DNA of 53,556 bases from a virus, in the IMG/VR virus record IMGVR_UViG_3300004184_000007, positions 1 to 53,556 of that record. The stretch is one strand, 5' to 3'. A program made the translations under genes and the position numbers. The notes beneath the pieces were generated by a model. That model did not search any database, was not told the origin of the DNA, and was given only the letters and a program-made list of their open reading frames with translations. Positions within the stretch are counted from its first letter, which is position 1; every line of letters begins with the position of its first letter. Of this stretch, positions 14,963 to 27,271 are shown piece by piece.

Positions 14963-15288
14963 GCGCGCAGCCGCTGGCCGAGGGCGTGAAGTACGACGCC
15001 GGGAAGGAGCCCTGGTCGCTCCTCCCGTGGGATGCCACGACGCTGGTCGTGCGCGTGCTCGACTTCGGCGCACGGAAGTACGCGCCCGACAACTGGCGCA
15101 AGGTGCCCGACGCGCCCTCGCGCTACTTCGACGCGTCCATCCGCCACCTCTCGGCGTGGCGTCGCGGGGAGAAGCTCGATGCCGAGACCGGGCTCCCGCA
15201 CCTCGCCCACGCCGCGTGCTGCGTGCTGTTCATGCTGGCGTTGGAGCACCCGATGCCGGTGGCGAGCACGGACGGCGGTGCGCCATGA
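14959..15288 (+). CDS. dATP/dGTP diphosphohydrolase-like (DUF5664) protein
   Basis: Protein of 109 aa. It shows the family pattern KYDAGKEPWSLLPWDAT, VLDFGARKYAPDNWRKV, and RYFDASIRHLSAWRRGEKLD followed by HLAHAACCVLFMLAL, an all-alpha MazG-like nucleotide pyrophosphohydrolase with acidic metal ligands. Phages use such enzymes to change dNTP pools during replication. It overlaps both neighbours by four bases. Specificity (dATP versus dGTP) cannot be read from the sequence. Confidence 0.8.
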   Translation: MSAQPLAEGVKYDAGKEPWSLLPWDATTLVVRVLDFGARKYAPDNWRKVPDAPSRYFDASIRHLSAWRRGEKLDAETGLPHLAHAACCVLFMLALEHPMPVASTDGGAP

Positions 15289-16649
15289 CCCTCCGCCCCT
15301 TCCAGCGGCAGCTCCGCAGCGACGTCTATCGCGCCATCGAAGGCGGCGCCGACTCGGTGCTGATGCAGTCGCCGACGGGTAGCGGCAAGACTTCCACCGT
15401 CGTCGAGGGCTTCATCGTCCCGTCGATCGCGCAGGGGCGGACCTTCGTCTTCGCGGCGCACCTCGAAGAGCTCATCGACGACACCGCGCAGCGCATCCGC
15501 TCCTTCGGCGTGCGCTGCGGCATCGTGAAGGCGGGGCGCGCTGCTGATCCGTCGGCGCCCGTTCAGGTGTGCTCGACGCAGACCCTCGCGCCGATGCTGG
15601 CGCGCGGGGAGCAGGTGCCGCCGGCGCACCGCTTCATCCTCGACGAAGCGCACCGCAGCAGTTCGACGACCAACAGACAGGTCATCGCGCACTACAAGTC
15701 CACGGGCGCGAAGATCCTCGGCCTCTCCGCCACGCCCTGCCGCGGCGACGAGCAGCCGCTGGATGAGTTCGACGCCCTCGTCACCGGCCCTTCCGTCCGC
15801 GAGCTCATCACGCAGGGCTACCTCGTCGAGCCGATCGTGCACGCACCCGCGAAGGTGCTCACGAGAGGCGTGGCCGAGGACCCTGCCGAGCTGGTGAACA
15901 GCCGCTGCATCGGCAGAAGGGCGGTCATCTTCGCCTCCACCGCCGCGCACGCGCTCGACATCGCCGCGCGCATCCCGGGCGCGGAGACCATCCTCGACTC
16001 GACGCCCTTCGACATCCGCAGCACCGTCCGCGATCGGCTGGCCACAGGCGAGACGCAGCACCTGGTCACCGTCAAGGCGCTGCTCGAAGGCTTCGACGCG
16101 CCCGTCCTCGACGTGGTGGTGCTCTGCGGCGCCTTCACGACCGTGACGCCGTACCTGCAGGCCATCGGTCGTGGGCTGCGGCCGTACACCTGCCCGATCA
16201 CCGGCCGGGTGAAGACCGACTGCCACATCTACGACCTCCGCGGCGCCGTCCACCTTCACGGCCTGCCCGACGATGCGCGGCGCTGGAGCCTGGAGGGCGC
16301 GCAGGGTCGCAGCCTCGTCGAGCGCCCGATGCCGCTTCGTCGCTGCGAGGCCTGCCACCACCTCTTTAGCCCGCGCACGGTCTGCCCCGCCTGCGGCTCC
16401 ATCCACCACTCGCCGGTGCGGCTCCTCCGGGTGCAGCGCGCCGCGCTCTTCGCGGCCTCCTCCATCCCCATCGGCGCCCGCGTCGCGCAGTGGGTCGACG
16501 GCGCCGTGCGCGCCATCACCGCCCGCCGCCCCGACATCTCGCCCGCCTGGGCCCGCGCCACCGTCCTCAAGAAGCCGCCCTCCTGGGTGCGCGAATACCT
16601 CGAAAACCAGTCTGTTTCATCGGTCGATGGAGAACGCCATGCCTCGTAG
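15285..16649 (+). CDS. SF2 DNA helicase (DEAH) with C-terminal zinc ribbon
   Basis: Protein of 454 aa. Motif I SPTGSGKT (29-36), motif II DEAH (120-123), motif III in ILGLSATPCR, and motif VI in QAIGRGLRP show a complete superfamily 2 helicase of the RecG/UvrB-DEAD-like type seen in many phages. A C-terminal CEACHHLF...CPACGS group (two CxxC pairs) forms a zinc ribbon, then an Arg-rich tail. Likely unwinds DNA at forks or the origin. Confidence 0.88.
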   Translation: MTLRPFQRQLRSDVYRAIEGGADSVLMQSPTGSGKTSTVVEGFIVPSIAQGRTFVFAAHLEELIDDTAQRIRSFGVRCGIVKAGRAADPSAPVQVCSTQTLAPMLARGEQVPPAHRFILDEAHRSSSTTNRQVIAHYKSTGAKILGLSATPCRGDEQPLDEFDALVTGPSVRELITQGYLVEPIVHAPAKVLTRGVAEDPAELVNSRCIGRRAVIFASTAAHALDIAARIPGAETILDSTPFDIRSTVRDRLATGETQHLVTVKALLEGFDAPVLDVVVLCGAFTTVTPYLQAIGRGLRPYTCPITGRVKTDCHIYDLRGAVHLHGLPDDARRWSLEGAQGRSLVERPMPLRRCEACHHLFSPRTVCPACGSIHHSPVRLLRVQRAALFAASSIPIGARVAQWVDGAVRAITARRPDISPAWARATVLKKPPSWVREYLENQSVSSVDGERHAS

Positions 16650-17133
16650 CGCCGTCAACGCTCCCCCGAAGAAGACTCTGCGCAGCAACCCCGAAGCGCT
16701 GCTGCAGGCGCGGATCATGGCGGCGCTCGGGCAGATGTCCGGCGTGGTGGTATGGCGGAACAACGTGGGGACGGCCGTCTACGAGGGCGGCGCCCGCGTC
16801 GAGTACGGTGTCGGCGGCAAGGGCGCGCCCGACCTGCTCTGCGAGGTGCTCTACCACGGCTCCGCGCTGGCCCTGTGGCTGGAGGTGAAGACCCCCGACG
16901 GCGTCGTCGAGGAGCACCAGCGCAGGTGGCACACCACCGCGCGCCACGGGGTGCAGCGCCCCGACGGCCTGATCGTCGGGGGCGGGCGCAGCGTCGCCGT
17001 CGTGCGCTCCGTCGAGGACGCGGTGCGCGCGGTCGAGGCCGTGATGCGCTGCGGCTGCATCGTCGCGGGCTTCGAGGTCGAGCGGCCGGCGTGGATGGAC
17101 AGCGCGCAGATGGGGGAGGTGTCCCGTGGCTGA
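16639..17133 (+). CDS. VRR-NUC nuclease
   Basis: Protein of 164 aa; ATG 16639 has GGAG six bases ahead. It has the compact VRR-NUC fold: Glu in PEALLQARIMAALGQ, the GGKGAPDLLCEV strand with its Asp, LALWLEVKTPDG (the E-V-K catalytic pair), and QRRWHTTARHGVQ followed by a hydrophobic GLIVGGGRSVAVV. Standalone VRR-NUC proteins are structure-specific (junction) nucleases in phages. Sits between two helicase genes, consistent with resolving replication or recombination intermediates. Confidence 0.85.
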   Translation: MPRSAVNAPPKKTLRSNPEALLQARIMAALGQMSGVVVWRNNVGTAVYEGGARVEYGVGGKGAPDLLCEVLYHGSALALWLEVKTPDGVVEEHQRRWHTTARHGVQRPDGLIVGGGRSVAVVRSVEDAVRAVEAVMRCGCIVAGFEVERPAWMDSAQMGEVSRG

Positions 17134-19306
17134 TGCCGCCCGCAAGCTCCCGCCCCCGAGCGCGGAGAACGTCATCGCGGGGCCATGGCTCAAGCCCACC
17201 CCCGCCACCCTCTCCGAGCGCACCGCCCGCGTCTTCACCGACGTGCTCCCCGCGCACTGGCCCGGCTACGCGCCTCGGGACGGGCAGATGGTGCTCACCA
17301 GGGCCATCGCAGACGCCATCGACCAGGGCGGCGCGCTCCTCGCCGAAGGGCCCTGCGGCACCGGCAAGACGCTCGCGTACCTGGTGCCGGCCATCCTCGA
17401 AGCCGACCGCACGGGCCGCACCGTGCTCGTGGTCACCGCCTCCATCGCCCTGCAGGAGCAGCTGGTGCAGCACGACCTGCCCGCGCTCGCGAAGGCCCTG
17501 GAGAGCGAGTTGCGCGAGCCGCTCACGTGGACGCTGCTCAAAGGCAGGGGAAACTACCTCTGCTCCAACACCCTCTCCGAGCCCGCACCGCACTTCCTCT
17601 CCTCTGACGAGCGCGCCGAGCTGCGTGCCATCGACACCTGGGCGCGCACCACGGAGACGGGCGATCGGCTCGAGCTTCCGATGATCGTGCGCGACGGCGT
17701 CTGGGCGATGCGCTCGGTCGAGTCCGACGACTGCCTGCGCGACGGCTGCGACCACTTCGACGCCTGCTTCGCTCGCAAGGCCAAGGCGAAGGCCGAGGGC
17801 GTCCGCGTGGTGGTCGTCAACTACCACCTGCTCTTCGCGCACATCTCAGTGAGAAGGGAGACCTTCCAGGACATCATCGTCCCCAAGACCGCGGGCAAGG
17901 ACAGCGGGCTCGCCTGGGACACCGTGCTCTGCGACGAGGCCCACGAAGCTGGGGACATCGCCCGCGACTTCATGGGCTGCGACATGACCGAGCGCATGGC
18001 GGCCAAGGTCAGCGGCTGGCTGAAGCGCAGCGACCGAGGGGGCAAGGAGGGCGCGGAGGGCGAGTGCATCGCCCTCTCGCAGCAGATCGAGCAGGCCGCC
18101 GCCGCCCTCTGGCGCGAGATGTCCGACCGGCTGCCCATCGTGCACCCGGGACAGCGCCAGGAAGCGCACCGCCTCCGCGAGGGCCTCCCGGCGGAGCACC
18201 TCGTCGGCCTGCTCGATCGGGCCGCGGCCATGGCGTCGAAGGTGGTGCGGAGCCTCAAGGCCCTCGGGAGCGACATCGACCCCGACCAGCGCAAGATCAT
18301 GCGCGCGGCCGAGAACGCCGAGAGGCGGGCGAGGAGGGTCCGCTCCTGGCTCGACGCCGCCGTCTGCCCCGACGAGGCGCCGCACACGGTGCTCTGGCTC
18401 GAGTCGCACACCGACAAGCGCGGCCACGAGCGCGTGCGCTTCTGCGGGCGGCTCCTCGACGTGGGCACAGTGCTGAAGGACGAGCTCTTCGCCCGGTCGC
18501 GCGCGGTCGTGCTCAGCAGCGCGACGCTCACCACGGGGCCGCTCCCGGCGCTCAACCGGGCGGCCCCGGCCTCTGCGTCGGATGCATGGCACTGGATTCG
18601 GCAGCAGCTCGGGCTCCCGGCCACCACGCCCGCCCTGGCCGTCGCCTCCCCCTTCGACTTCGCGACCCAGGCGCTGCTCTGCCTCCCGGCCGGGATGGGC
18701 GACCCGACGCGCGATCGCGAGGGCTTCGACGCCAAGGTCTGCGAGGCCGTCGAGGCTACGGCCCGTGCGGCCGGGGGCCGGACACTCGCGCTCTTCACCA
18801 GCACCCGGATGGCGAAGCGCGCGGCCGAGTACCTGCGCTCCCGTAATATAGGCGTCCCGGTCCTCTGCCAGGGAGAGCAGCCCCGGCCGCATCTCCTCGC
18901 CGCGATGAAGGCGCGCCCCTCCATCCTCTGCGCGACCACGTCCTTCTGGACGGGCGTCGATCTGCCCGGGGAGGCCGTCGTCGCCGTCGTCCTCGACAAG
19001 ATGCCCTTCCCGGTGATGGGCGACCCGGTGCTCGACGCGCTCTCCGAGCTCGCCTTCGCGCGCACGGGCGACCGCTGGACCGGCTGGCGGGAGGAGTCCT
19101 TGCCCAGGGCCACCCTCGCACTCCGCCAGGGCGCCGGGCGGCTGATCCGCAGCGTGACCGATTGGGGCGTGGTGGTCGTGTGCGACCCGCGCCTCACCTC
19201 GAAGCCCTACGGCGCGGGCGTCCTCAAGAGCCTCGCGATGCCCGCACAGGTGCGGACGATCGCGGCGATGCAGCAGTGGTTCCGCGCCCGGGGAGACGCA
19301 CGATGA
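17126..19306 (+). CDS. DinG/XPD-type helicase with 4Fe-4S cysteines
   Basis: Protein of 726 aa, GTG start with GGGGGAGG upstream. Walker A GPCGTGKT is at 75-82, DEAH at 270-273, and the iron-sulphur domain between them carries four cysteines (146, 203, 208, 214). Later motifs include VVLSSATLTTG, LALFTSTRMAKRAAE, ILCATTSFWTGVDLPGE and LRQGAGRLIRS (motif VI). This is a full-length XPD/Rad3-like 5'-3' helicase as in bacterial DinG. A phage copy is probably used in replication restart or to clear R-loops. Confidence 0.9.
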   Translation: MADAARKLPPPSAENVIAGPWLKPTPATLSERTARVFTDVLPAHWPGYAPRDGQMVLTRAIADAIDQGGALLAEGPCGTGKTLAYLVPAILEADRTGRTVLVVTASIALQEQLVQHDLPALAKALESELREPLTWTLLKGRGNYLCSNTLSEPAPHFLSSDERAELRAIDTWARTTETGDRLELPMIVRDGVWAMRSVESDDCLRDGCDHFDACFARKAKAKAEGVRVVVVNYHLLFAHISVRRETFQDIIVPKTAGKDSGLAWDTVLCDEAHEAGDIARDFMGCDMTERMAAKVSGWLKRSDRGGKEGAEGECIALSQQIEQAAAALWREMSDRLPIVHPGQRQEAHRLREGLPAEHLVGLLDRAAAMASKVVRSLKALGSDIDPDQRKIMRAAENAERRARRVRSWLDAAVCPDEAPHTVLWLESHTDKRGHERVRFCGRLLDVGTVLKDELFARSRAVVLSSATLTTGPLPALNRAAPASASDAWHWIRQQLGLPATTPALAVASPFDFATQALLCLPAGMGDPTRDREGFDAKVCEAVEATARAAGGRTLALFTSTRMAKRAAEYLRSRNIGVPVLCQGEQPRPHLLAAMKARPSILCATTSFWTGVDLPGEAVVAVVLDKMPFPVMGDPVLDALSELAFARTGDRWTGWREESLPRATLALRQGAGRLIRSVTDWGVVVVCDPRLTSKPYGAGVLKSLAMPAQVRTIAAMQQWFRARGDAR

Positions 19307-22300
19307 GTCGCGACTGGAAGCCCGTCTCCCACCGCGCGCCCTGTCGCATCTGCAAGAGCCCGAAGCGCTGCGCCGCGACCCTCGACGGCCGCGTGGCCAA
19401 GTGCTGCTACGCGATCGAGGGCGGCGTCGCGCGCGAAGACGAGGTCGGCGAGTACCGCCTCTTCTTCGCCGACAACGTCTCGCCGGCCGCCCGCCGCGCC
19501 CACGAGCCACCGCCCGCCGCGCCCCTCGCCACCGTCGACACGCGGCACCAGGTCTACACGGCGCTCCTCGGCGCCTGCCCCCTCTCGCCCGAGCACTCCG
19601 CCGGGCTCCTGGGTCGCGGGCTCACCGTCGAGGACGTCGCTGCCCGCGGCTACGGCACCCTCCCGCGTACAGCCAGGGAGCGCGCGTCCGTCGTCGCTAC
19701 CGTCCGCACGGCTCTCGGCGGCACCCTCCCGGGCGACGTCCCCGGGCTGCACCTCGGCAAGCTGCCCGACCTCGACGGCGTCCTGATCCCCGTGCGCGAC
19801 GCCGAGGGCCATATTGCAGCCCTCAAGGTCCGCCGCGATGGCACCGCGGACCCCCGCTACCTGTGGCTGAGCAGCGCGAGCCAGGGCGGCGCCTCGTCGG
19901 GGAGCCCTGCGCACGCGCCGCTCGGCGCCCAGGGGATGCTCTCTGCGGCTGTGGAGGCTGGCGGCCCCAGGGCAGTGCGCCTGACCGAGGGCCCGCTCAA
20001 GGCCGACGTCGCGACCACGCTCTCCGGCGTGGTCACCCTCGCGATCCCCGGGGCGATGGCCGCCCGGAGCGCGCTGCCCGTCCTGCGCGCCCTCGCCCCC
20101 GCCGCCATCCGCCTCGCGTGGGACGCTGACGCGCGGACGAACCCGCACGTCGCGGGGGGCCTCGAGCACGCGGCGCACCTGCTATGCGCGGAGATGCCCG
20201 GCGCCCAGCTCGAGGTCGAGACATGGGCCGCTGGACCCAAGGGCATCGACGACGCGCTCTCCGCCGGCGCGCCCCTCGCCGTCCACGCGGGCCAGGCCAT
20301 GTGGCGCGAGCTCGTCGCGATCCTGCGCGCCGCCGGGCGCGAGCCCCGGCCGGAGACGCTGGAGAGGGCGGGGATGGAGGCCGAGGACGAGGTCGACGTC
20401 TTCGCCCGCCTCGCCGCCGACCCCTCCATCGCCCTCGACGAGGGCACCGTCGCCGAATGCGCCGCGCTCGACGCGGCCGGGCTCACCCGCGCGAAGGAGA
20501 TCCTGCGCGCCGCGAACGTCCCGCTCCGGGCGTTCAATGCGGCGGTCAACGCCATCAAGGATCAGCAGGAGCGCGACCAGAGGCGCGCCGCCGCGACCGC
20601 CAGGGTCGAAGCCATGGCGGTCAAGAAGCCCGTCATCCGGCTCGGCCCCGACGAGGACCGCGTCGCCGACGAGGCCGTCGAGGCGCTCGCCCGCCACCCC
20701 GGCGTCTACCAGCGCGGCGGCGCTCTGGTCTACGTCCTCGCCGATCAGTCGCCCCTGCGCGGCATCACCCGACCTGCGGGCGCCTCGCGCATCGCCCCGC
20801 TCCCGCTGCCCACGCTCCGCGAGTACCTCTCCGGCGCCGCGGCGTGGGTAACCGAGACCGAGGACGGCCCCAAGGTCGCTCACGTCCCGAGCACCTGCGT
20901 TCAGGCCGTCGCTGCCCGCGGGCAGTGGCAGGGCCTGCGCGCCCTCGAGGGCATCGTCGACTGCCCGATGCTCCGCCCCGACGGGAGCGTCATCGAGGAG
21001 CCCGGCTACGACCCGGCCACAGGCGTGATCTATGTGCCGTCGCGGGCGTACCCGGCCGTGCCCAAGAGCCCCACCCAGGCCGACGCCCAGCAGAGCATCG
21101 CTCTCCTCGCCGACCTCTTCTGCGACTTCCCCTTCCGCACGCCTGCCCACGCTTCGGCGGCCATCGCCGCGCTGCTGACGCCGCTCGCGGTCTACGCCTT
21201 CAGCGGGCCGAAGCCGCTCTTCCTCTTCGACGCGAACACGGCCGGCGCGGGCAAGGGCAAGTGCGTCTCCCTGGTCTCCGAGGTGGTCGCCGGGAGGCCC
21301 ATCGCCGTGATGGCGCCCGTCGAAGACGACGCCGAGCAGAGGAAGCGCATCACCGCGCTGGCGATCGAGGGCGCCACGCTGGTGCTCATCGACAACATCG
21401 TCGGCTCCCTCGGCGGGCCCTCGATGGACGCGGCGCTGACCGCGACCGAATGGTCCGACCGCATCCTCGGCTCCTCGACCACCATCAAGCTCCCGCTCGC
21501 GATCACCTGGTTCGCCACCGGGAACAACGTCGCGCTCATCGGCGATATGCAGCGCCGGGTGCTCCACGTGCGGCTGGAGTCGCCCGAGGCGAACCCCGAG
21601 GACCGCACCGGCTTCCGCCATGGAGACGTCGAGGCCTACGCCCGAGAGCATCGCGCGCAGCTGGTGACGGCCGCTCTCACCGTCCTGCGCGCCTACGCCC
21701 TCGCCGGCCGCCCGCGCGACCGGCTCCCGTCCTGGGGCAGTTTCACCGGCTGGTCCGACCTGATCCGGGGCGCCATCGTGTGGTGCGGGCTCCCGGACCC
21801 GGCCGAGACGCGCCAGGAGCTGCGCGCCGAGGCCGACTACACCGCGGGCGCGCTCCGGGGGCTTATCCTCGGCTGGCCCGAGGTCGCGAAGCGCTACGGC
21901 GGGCACTGCACCGCCGCCCAGGCGCTGCGGGAGCTCGACCGCGACGACCGCGACGCCTTCGGGCAGCAGCGGCCGGTGATGTACGCGGCGCTGAGGGAGG
22001 CGCTCGCGGAGCTCATCGCGACGGGCCCGGGGAAGCTCCCGAGCACGCGGCAGCTCGGGACGGTGCTCAGGTCCTACAAGGGACGCGTCGTGATGTGCGC
22101 AGACGGGGTGCTGCGGGCGCTCTCTCTCGCGAAGAAGGGGAACGAGGGCGTCATGTGGTGCGTCCGGGAGTCGGGGCGAGGACCGGCCCGGGTCCAGGCG
22201 CTGCCCCGGGAGAGTGACGATGGTGACGATGGTGACGATGTTTCCGGCTACCCCGTGCGAGAAAAGTCATTTTTTACGGGTATGAGCGCGCATGAGGGCG

Positions 22301-22452
22301 CGCACGTAAATAATAGGGAGCCAGAAGGGCTAGGGGCTGAAACACAGTCACTACCGTCACCATCGTCACTCGCCACCCCCGGCTTCGACGACGACCTCGA
22401 TTGGGGCGAGGTGAACCTGGGTCCCGTGGTGCCGGGAGGGCTGCACTCATGA
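19303..22452 (+). CDS. Primase-helicase (zinc finger, DUF3854/Toprim, P-loop ATPase)
   Basis: Protein of 1049 aa, the main replication protein. The N-terminus has a Cys cluster (PCRICKSPKRCA...AKCCYA). Residues about 160-320 form a DUF3854/Toprim-type primase domain: TEGPLKADV carries the Glu and LAWDADARTN the Asp pair. Near residue 645 is the P-loop TAGAGKGK, with LVLIDN as Walker B about 50 residues on and the sensor-like ITWFATGNN. The C-terminal 60 codons hold the iteron-like repeats and AT-rich island described as a candidate origin, encoding an acidic DDGDDGDD stretch. Start ATG 19303 overlaps the DinG stop. Confidence 0.85.
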   Translation: MSRDWKPVSHRAPCRICKSPKRCAATLDGRVAKCCYAIEGGVAREDEVGEYRLFFADNVSPAARRAHEPPPAAPLATVDTRHQVYTALLGACPLSPEHSAGLLGRGLTVEDVAARGYGTLPRTARERASVVATVRTALGGTLPGDVPGLHLGKLPDLDGVLIPVRDAEGHIAALKVRRDGTADPRYLWLSSASQGGASSGSPAHAPLGAQGMLSAAVEAGGPRAVRLTEGPLKADVATTLSGVVTLAIPGAMAARSALPVLRALAPAAIRLAWDADARTNPHVAGGLEHAAHLLCAEMPGAQLEVETWAAGPKGIDDALSAGAPLAVHAGQAMWRELVAILRAAGREPRPETLERAGMEAEDEVDVFARLAADPSIALDEGTVAECAALDAAGLTRAKEILRAANVPLRAFNAAVNAIKDQQERDQRRAAATARVEAMAVKKPVIRLGPDEDRVADEAVEALARHPGVYQRGGALVYVLADQSPLRGITRPAGASRIAPLPLPTLREYLSGAAAWVTETEDGPKVAHVPSTCVQAVAARGQWQGLRALEGIVDCPMLRPDGSVIEEPGYDPATGVIYVPSRAYPAVPKSPTQADAQQSIALLADLFCDFPFRTPAHASAAIAALLTPLAVYAFSGPKPLFLFDANTAGAGKGKCVSLVSEVVAGRPIAVMAPVEDDAEQRKRITALAIEGATLVLIDNIVGSLGGPSMDAALTATEWSDRILGSSTTIKLPLAITWFATGNNVALIGDMQRRVLHVRLESPEANPEDRTGFRHGDVEAYAREHRAQLVTAALTVLRAYALAGRPRDRLPSWGSFTGWSDLIRGAIVWCGLPDPAETRQELRAEADYTAGALRGLILGWPEVAKRYGGHCTAAQALRELDRDDRDAFGQQRPVMYAALREALAELIATGPGKLPSTRQLGTVLRSYKGRVVMCADGVLRALSLAKKGNEGVMWCVRESGRGPARVQALPRESDDGDDGDDVSGYPVREKSFFTGMSAHEGAHVNNREPEGLGAETQSLPSPSSLATPGFDDDLDWGEVNLGPVVPGGLHS
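22213..22370. other. Candidate replication origin inside the primase gene
   Basis: Three direct copies of a 9-bp unit GTGACGATG (from 22215) are answered by related units in inverted order at 22345-22370; 15 bases at 22213-22227 are the exact reverse complement of 22356-22370. The 128 bases between them are strikingly AT-rich for this genome (for example AAAAGTCATTTTTTACGGG, and TAAATAATA near 22307) and contain a GCGCGC inverted repeat (22286-22291 with 22298-22303). Iterons plus an unwinding element in a replication gene is the lambda/O-type layout. Confidence 0.55.
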
Positions 22453-25807: not shown

Positions 25808-27271
25808 ATGGCACCCACCCTCCTCACGCGCCTCACCGACGTCGCGGCCGGCTACCTCGAAGCCGCCGCCACCCGTCTGCGCTCGGCGCGTAGCGAGTCC
25901 CTCGCGATCCCCGGTCCCTGGACCGACCGCGAGTCGGACGTGCTGGGCGTGAACATCACGCCCGAGGCGCTGGGGCAGCTCCTGCGCCGTCGCAACGAGG
26001 GCCACCTCGAGGCCTGGGCCGACCTCGCCGACCACGCGCGCCGCACGCACCCGCACCTGCACACGCAGCTGCAGAACCGCGAGCTCAGCGTATCCGAGAC
26101 GGAGTTCGAGGTGGTGGCCCCCGAGGGCGGTCCCAAGGGTCGCACCGACCGCGCGATGGGGGCTTGCAAGGAGCTCTTCGCGGAGTGGGATGAGCGCGGC
26201 TGGTCGACCTGGTCCGCCGAGATGGTGGGCGCGAAGTACTACCCCGCGGGCCTGCAGGAGGTCTCCTGGGAGCGCTGGCAGGGCTGGGTCGCCCCGGTCG
26301 CGCTCACCCGCATCGCCGAGCGCCGCCTGTCCTACGCCTGCGACCGCTTCGACCCGGACCCCTGGGCGCTGCGGATCTGGGACGCGCAGGACTCCTCCAG
26401 CCCCTTCGGCGGGATGTACGGCGTGAAGGTTTCCGACCTGCACCCGGACAAGTTCCTCGTGCACGAGCCGCGCGTCGCAGGCGGTCACCGCGCGAGCGAG
26501 GGCCTCTTCGCGGTCTGCTGCTGGTACTGGCTCTTCGGCGTCTACTCCTGGAAGCACCTGATGGCGCTCCTGGAGACCTTCGGGCGGCCGCCGGTCATCG
26601 GCTACTTCAACGCGGGCGGCGCAGCGGCCGACGGCGCGGTGAAGAAGAGCAACGGCGACCGGAAGGCTACGGCCGACGACGTCGCCGCTGGAAAGCGCGC
26701 CATCGCTGCGATGAGCGGGTCGCTGCGCGCGATGCTCCCCGACACCGTCCGGTTGGAGGCGCTCAAGTTCGAGATGCCCGCCAACCCGGCGCAGATCCTC
26801 ACGTCGGACAAGGTCGACGCGTACCTCTCCAAGGCCATCAACGGCACCACCGGCGTGACGGACATCGTCGCCGGCGCGCGGGCCTCGCACGAAGTCGCCG
26901 CCCGCCAGGCCATGACGCCCTACCGCGCCGACTGCCGCGACGTGGGGCGCGCGGGCACCGAGCTCTTCCGCCGCTTCATCCGCGCCAACCCCGACTACTT
27001 CGGCGCCAACTGCCCGGTGCCGCGTCTGCGCGCTTCCCACGAGGAAGCGCTCGACCTGCAGGTGTTCACCGGCGCGATGAAGACCGCGCGAGACGCTGGC
27101 GCCCGCATCCCGGAGCGCTGGTTCAACGAACAGATCGGCGTCCCCGAGGCGGTGGAGGGCGAGCGCCTGCTCGGCGACCCGATCGCCAGCCAGCCCGCGC
27201 CGAAGCCCCTCGGCGTCGACCCGGCGAAGGCCGTCGACCCCAACGCCCTCCCACCGAAGAGCACTCCATGA
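25808..27271 (+). CDS. Portal protein (DUF935, Mu gp29-like)
   Basis: Protein of 487 aa. Typical DUF935 features: the opening ITPEALGQLLRRRNEGHLEA, THPHLHTQLQNRELSVSETE, a central region with HPDKFLVHEPR, KHLMALLETFGRPPVIGYF, and the C-terminal IPERWFNEQIGVPEAVEGE. Forms the dodecameric gate through which DNA enters the head. The stop overlaps the protease start. Assignment rests on motif recall and position. Confidence 0.88.
   Translation: MAPTLLTRLTDVAAGYLEAAATRLRSARSESLAIPGPWTDRESDVLGVNITPEALGQLLRRRNEGHLEAWADLADHARRTHPHLHTQLQNRELSVSETEFEVVAPEGGPKGRTDRAMGACKELFAEWDERGWSTWSAEMVGAKYYPAGLQEVSWERWQGWVAPVALTRIAERRLSYACDRFDPDPWALRIWDAQDSSSPFGGMYGVKVSDLHPDKFLVHEPRVAGGHRASEGLFAVCCWYWLFGVYSWKHLMALLETFGRPPVIGYFNAGGAAADGAVKKSNGDRKATADDVAAGKRAIAAMSGSLRAMLPDTVRLEALKFEMPANPAQILTSDKVDAYLSKAINGTTGVTDIVAGARASHEVAARQAMTPYRADCRDVGRAGTELFRRFIRANPDYFGANCPVPRLRASHEEALDLQVFTGAMKTARDAGARIPERWFNEQIGVPEAVEGERLLGDPIASQPAPKPLGVDPAKAVDPNALPPKSTP

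Follow-up and report, generated by a model that had tools for sequence, protein, structure and literature searches.

Inverted 9-bp iterons at the 3' end of a phage primase-helicase gene as a probable replication origin

The DNA analysed here, called the window, is the whole 53,556-nucleotide stretch of IMG/VR virus record IMGVR_UViG_3300004184_000007 (positions 1 to 53,556), and the element under study consists of two facing sets of 9-bp iterons around a low-GC island at the end of a primase-helicase gene. The original prediction, made from the letters only, had proposed this element as a candidate phage origin. The features of the locus are as follows.

19300..22452, plus strand: primase-helicase (initiator) gene, 1050 aa, ATG at 19300, PHROG 29234/10537/19930 (DNA polymerase/primase)
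21913..22170, plus strand: winged-helix domain at the C-terminus of the initiator, presumed to read the iterons (AlphaFold2 model)
22174..22452, plus strand: codons through the iterons and the island, giving a disordered, non-conserved C-terminal tail (predicted local distance difference test, pLDDT; tails of relatives)
22209..22244, plus strand: left inverted-repeat arm
22214..22240, plus strand: left iteron set, three perfect tandem GTGACGATG of 9 bp each
22241..22345, no strand: low-GC island (54.3% GC) that separates the two iteron sets and presumably melts
22286..22303, no strand: GCGCGC hairpin at the centre of the island (DNA folding)
22339..22374, minus strand: right inverted-repeat arm
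22343..22369, minus strand: right iteron set, inverted, with GTGACGATG perfect and GTGACGGTA and GTGACTGTG degenerate

The three direct repeats and the inverted set of the original prediction were both found, the latter with one perfect and two degenerate units. The two 36-nt arms showed 86% complementarity with a perfect core of 15 nt. When the whole window was searched, matches to GTGACGATGGTGACG with 0-1 mismatch were confined to the element and no second copy of the repeats was found elsewhere. A score for inverted repeats with period 9 reached its window-wide maximum of 24.5 at 22213, while the best score in 60 dinucleotide shuffles of the whole window was 23.0. The island had been called AT-rich and about 128 bases long; the first holds relative to the genome (51-54% against 72% GC), and the length was about 105 bases. 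The GC content of 22241-22345 was below that of 99.9% of windows, and this segment overlaps the lowest-GC 105-bp stretch of the entire window (22262-22366, 51.4% GC).

No Pfam family was matched by the primase-helicase of the window. Its last 614 aa (fragment starting at 20608) were modelled using AlphaFold2, and Foldseek with this model returned PriRep1 of the Staphylococcus aureus pathogenicity island SaPI5 (7pds, 7ola) and the poxvirus D5/E5-type, African swine fever PrimPol and NrS-1 helicases, with probability 1.00 and low template modelling scores (TM-scores) of about 0.3-0.4, which indicates a fold class and not a detailed match. The predicted winged helix covers fragment residues 436-521, with helices at 436-444, 460-470 and 480-489 and strands at 494-496, 502-511 and 514-521. 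The repeats are located just 3' of its codons and, as had been stated before, within the last 80 codons of the open reading frame (ORF) ending at 22452. Judged from this model, the locus would share with the origins of SaPI and of phage-inducible chromosomal islands (PICI) both the position directly 3' of the initiator and a helicase of D5/superfamily 3 (SF3) type with a C-terminal DNA-binding domain.

The repeats and the island code for fragment residues 523-614, which had pLDDT below 50 and were predicted to be disordered, and the Asp/Gly run and the Lys/Phe stretch are encoded as described earlier. A sequence kept for the protein, as an acidic C-terminal tail functioning in its own right, should leave the frame open, and both the window and some relatives do have an open frame of about 90 codons here. 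Among eleven aligned relatives, five continue through the repeats, so that their unrelated tails are translations of those repeats, and the other six end between the winged helix and the repeats. The tails differ completely (DDGDDGDD, AGVAGVAG, GGDGGDGG), as different repeats would give, and together with the predicted disorder this makes it very unlikely that the sequence is kept for the protein. Because relatives either spell their own repeats in this tail or stop ahead of them, the comparison supports selection acting on the DNA rather than on the encoded tail, as originally suggested.

Relatives were then sampled by the initiator protein alone. For the family of the window, 30 members were found by protein, including the near-identical twin of the window and locus L079, and the DNA 3' of the conserved domain was scored for inverted period-9 arms. 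Of the 30, 21 scored above 20, their arms lying just downstream of the initiator domain; no upstream control region or shuffle scored above 20.0. The repeats of this family are diverse (GGTGACTCT, GCCGGAGTC, GGCGGAGAT, TGAGTTTTA and others). L079, the closest distinct relative with a 56% identical helicase, carries GTGAC every 9 bp at the equivalent place with other variable bases, and also keeps the TTTCC...CTACCCC border. The check that the original prediction had set against itself, iterons missing from close relatives, did not refute an origin, and the origin reading is well supported by the comparison with relatives. For relatives of the primase of Bordetella phage BPP-1, inverted period-9 arms were found in 66 of 69 measurable cases, mostly 36-614 bp past the stop codon.

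In BPP-1/BIP-1 itself, an inverted TTGCCTCGT period-9 element lies about 470 bp 3' of the primase gene (genome 26,607-26,710; L087 2608-2711). The study of pRN1 had sought repeats in phage BIP-1, considered none of them an origin and proposed a stem-loop beside the initiator stop at 27,177 (PMC4234260). The period-9 element stands at a different place from this stem-loop.

The BPP-1 group allowed the repeats to be compared with the protein. The primases of BPP-1 and L017 are 82% identical over 855 residues, with the last 30 residues most divergent, and their islands are homologous with different repeats. For the 169 BPP-1-type pairs whose cores diverge by less than 16%, the distance between C-termini was 0.044 when the repeats agreed (n = 46) and 0.404 when they differed (n = 123), while the core distances of these pairs were 0.035 and 0.082, respectively. 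Among 167 protein windows, residues 826-845 correlated best with the repeats (r = 0.92). Within-cluster permutation gave p = 0.0002, which serves as a guide and not as an exact probability since the pairs share ancestry.

The change of repeats followed the last 30 residues, and most of all two residues of the wing. These two (D353-S354 in the BPP-1 model, at the beta strand 350-353 and the following loop) predicted repeat bases 3-5. The pairs and triplets were RD-CGT, KD-CGA, KG-TGG, RS/RG/RT mostly TGA, MN-GAA and QN/QH-TAC, with a trend of Asp going with C and Lys/Arg with G. When clades set at 80% core identity were compared with each other, the same residue pair went with the same triplet in 27 of 29 comparisons, while unequal pairs did so in 3 of 281, and none of 20,000 permutations reached this agreement. 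At least two units were mis-registered in this test (LN, QD) and were kept as errors in the counts. The relation was noticed and tested on the same data, and the cross-clade comparison is what carries it beyond inheritance. We lean towards the view that a simple code in the winged-helix wing lets phage primase-helicase initiators recognise their origin, with two neighbouring residues specifying bases 3-5 of the 9-bp iteron; this would be a common phage origin type, in which specificity may switch between near-identical phages through a few residues and the repeats together. No description of the wing-repeat relation was found in the literature searched, which covered few subscription journals. 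As a separate observation, L114 and L115 have near-identical primases with the wings QLIRS and TSAKG, and their repeats are one base apart (AGTGACGTT vs AGTGGCGTT).

The layout was also sought by DNA pattern. An exact search for two GTGACNNTG units facing two inverted units returned 16 viral and 38 bacterial or archaeal loci, in which the variable bases mostly agree within a locus and differ between loci. A changed-core pattern, intended as the negative control, returned a further 18 loci, several of them near-identical, in which GGTCAGGGT-type repeats are arranged in this layout; since it had returned the true layout, upstream regions and shuffles became the controls. With the window included, a related primase-helicase gene was found in 48 of 73 loci, and in 46 of these 48 its 3' end overlaps the island or falls within about 400 bp. 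Several of the remaining loci adjoin a Prim-Pol/DUF5906 protein, a VapE-primase, a relative of the archaeal primase large subunit or a RepA-like AAA_25 helicase. When the element was compared by BLAST with phage and plasmid collections, the only matches were short and looked like chance, and the literature searched did not contain the repeats as literal strings. What these loci have in common is the layout and not the sequence.

Several of these loci deserve separate mention. The three contigs L023, L039 and L052 of a single Gemmiger genome have near-identical inverted GGTGACGAT islands, each within the 3' end of a RepA-like AAA_25 helicase gene, and near-identical islands of this kind were also found in such gene ends in L038, L050 and L053. 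In L048 (1398-1544), from the metagenome-assembled genome of a methanogen, the repeat layout lies inside a gene matching the archaeal/eukaryotic DNA primase large subunit. In the Bacteroidales loci L025, L054 and L049, which have the layout, the stretch examined showed no initiator; two of these loci adjoin glycoside hydrolase genes. The islands of L060-L075, L092-L162 and the window (22286-22303) often have a central alternating purine-pyrimidine run or short hairpin (ACGTGTAC, TATATATA, GCGCGC), and in the BPP-1 group this central feature has a T-run to its left and an A-run to its right.

An inverted-repeat mobile element inserted into the end of the gene would also account for inverted ends that enclose about 100 bp and for the three near-identical Gemmiger copies. 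The element is present in a single copy in the window, it occupies the orthologous position in relatives where the island is conserved and the arms have changed, and the arms are tandem 9-mers that track the adjacent protein; an insertion is accordingly highly improbable.

Taken together, the element is very probably the replication origin of the phage, with its iterons bound by the winged helix of the primase-helicase of the same gene. This reading is based on the non-random repeats at the lowest-GC stretch of the genome beside a winged helix, on the recurrence of the layout beside this initiator class, also in samples chosen by protein only, and on the covariation of repeats with the winged helix in the BPP-1 group, where between BPP-1 and L017 the island is conserved while the arms change. 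The C-terminal winged helix would bind the 9-bp iterons at the end of its own gene, the two facing sets would load two helicase hexamers on the low-GC island, the island would be opened by helicase action, and the attached primase would lay the first primers on both strands, giving two forks. For this phage, we infer each of these steps: binding, the two hexamers, melting, priming and the start of replication here.

Some observations weigh against an origin of this kind. The right-hand iteron set is degenerate, and GC skew, suggested earlier as a check, showed no inflection at 22 kb and lent no support. L179, L187, L188 and L192 are among the members of the window's family without clear arms, an initiator gene is missing from the surroundings of some loci found by DNA pattern, and the two-residue relation was not readable in the window's own family, whose wings are not alignable.

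The element might instead serve to control the initiator, as an operator or as a copy-number site like that of P4, with replication beginning elsewhere. Initiators often bind their own control sites, and P4 has two iteron-bearing regions, crr by the alpha gene and ori1 elsewhere. A second site with these repeats is missing from the window, the element stands at the end of the gene and not in front of it, and the equivalent place in SaPI/PICI is the origin itself, so that we regard a control site as improbable.

Upstream of the primase-helicase gene there are directly two more DNA helicase genes (15027-16649 and 17126-19306), and an endonuclease-like ORF lies at 16273-17133.

Taken singly, the element is a variant of a known origin type, and the interest lies in the breadth of the layout and in the relation between wing and repeats. 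With the layout in ordinary phages and in prophages and other elements of many phyla, the origins of a large class of phages could be located from their sequences. The specificity of initiator for origin, which bears on phage, satellite and plasmid compatibility, would be testable with natural phage pairs that differ by little beyond wing residues and matching repeats.

Among known systems, the PICI pri-rep-ori drives plasmid replication and deletion of its ori lowers replication (PMC6092414), and SaPI Rep and Cch2 have been established to bind, through their C-terminal domain, the repeats of an origin directly downstream of their own gene (PMC7581432). The window shares with these a D5/SF3-type initiator, an origin position immediately 3' and two iteron sets around an AT-rich region, and by analogy its winged helix is presumed to read the iterons as their C-terminal domain does. 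It differs in that its iterons lie inside the ORF, in clearly inverted sets of 9-mers in a GC-rich genome, and in that it belongs to a tailed phage with terminase, Mu-type portal and baseplate genes, whereas a PICI is a satellite without a full virion gene set. The layout has been described in print as unique to PICIs and found in no other replicon; this looks too narrow, because we found it in tailed phages and many other loci. In pRN1, a 100-bp stem-loop 3' of the initiator gene is required for replication (PMC4234260). Like the element in the window, it is an inverted-repeat element of about 100 bp 3' of a primase-SF3-winged-helix gene (orf904), but that origin was reported without iterons, whereas the arms in the window are iterons. 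In P4, crr is located 3' of the alpha gene and its type-1 repeats are 9 bp apart; it is alike in the iterons 3' of a primase-helicase gene, the 9-bp spacing, a related GGTGA core and a winged-helix initiator; its two 120-bp direct repeats and the second site ori1 have no counterpart seen in the window, which has a single block. The origin in lambda gene O, to which the element had first been likened, also has iterons and an AT-rich stretch inside a replication gene, but O is not a primase-helicase and its origin is in the middle of the gene, while the element in the window is at the 3' end. The lambda iterons are also not known to be arranged as two inverted sets flanking the AT-rich stretch. 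The lambda analogy is therefore weak, and by layout the better, and much closer, comparison is with SaPI/PICI and P4 crr.
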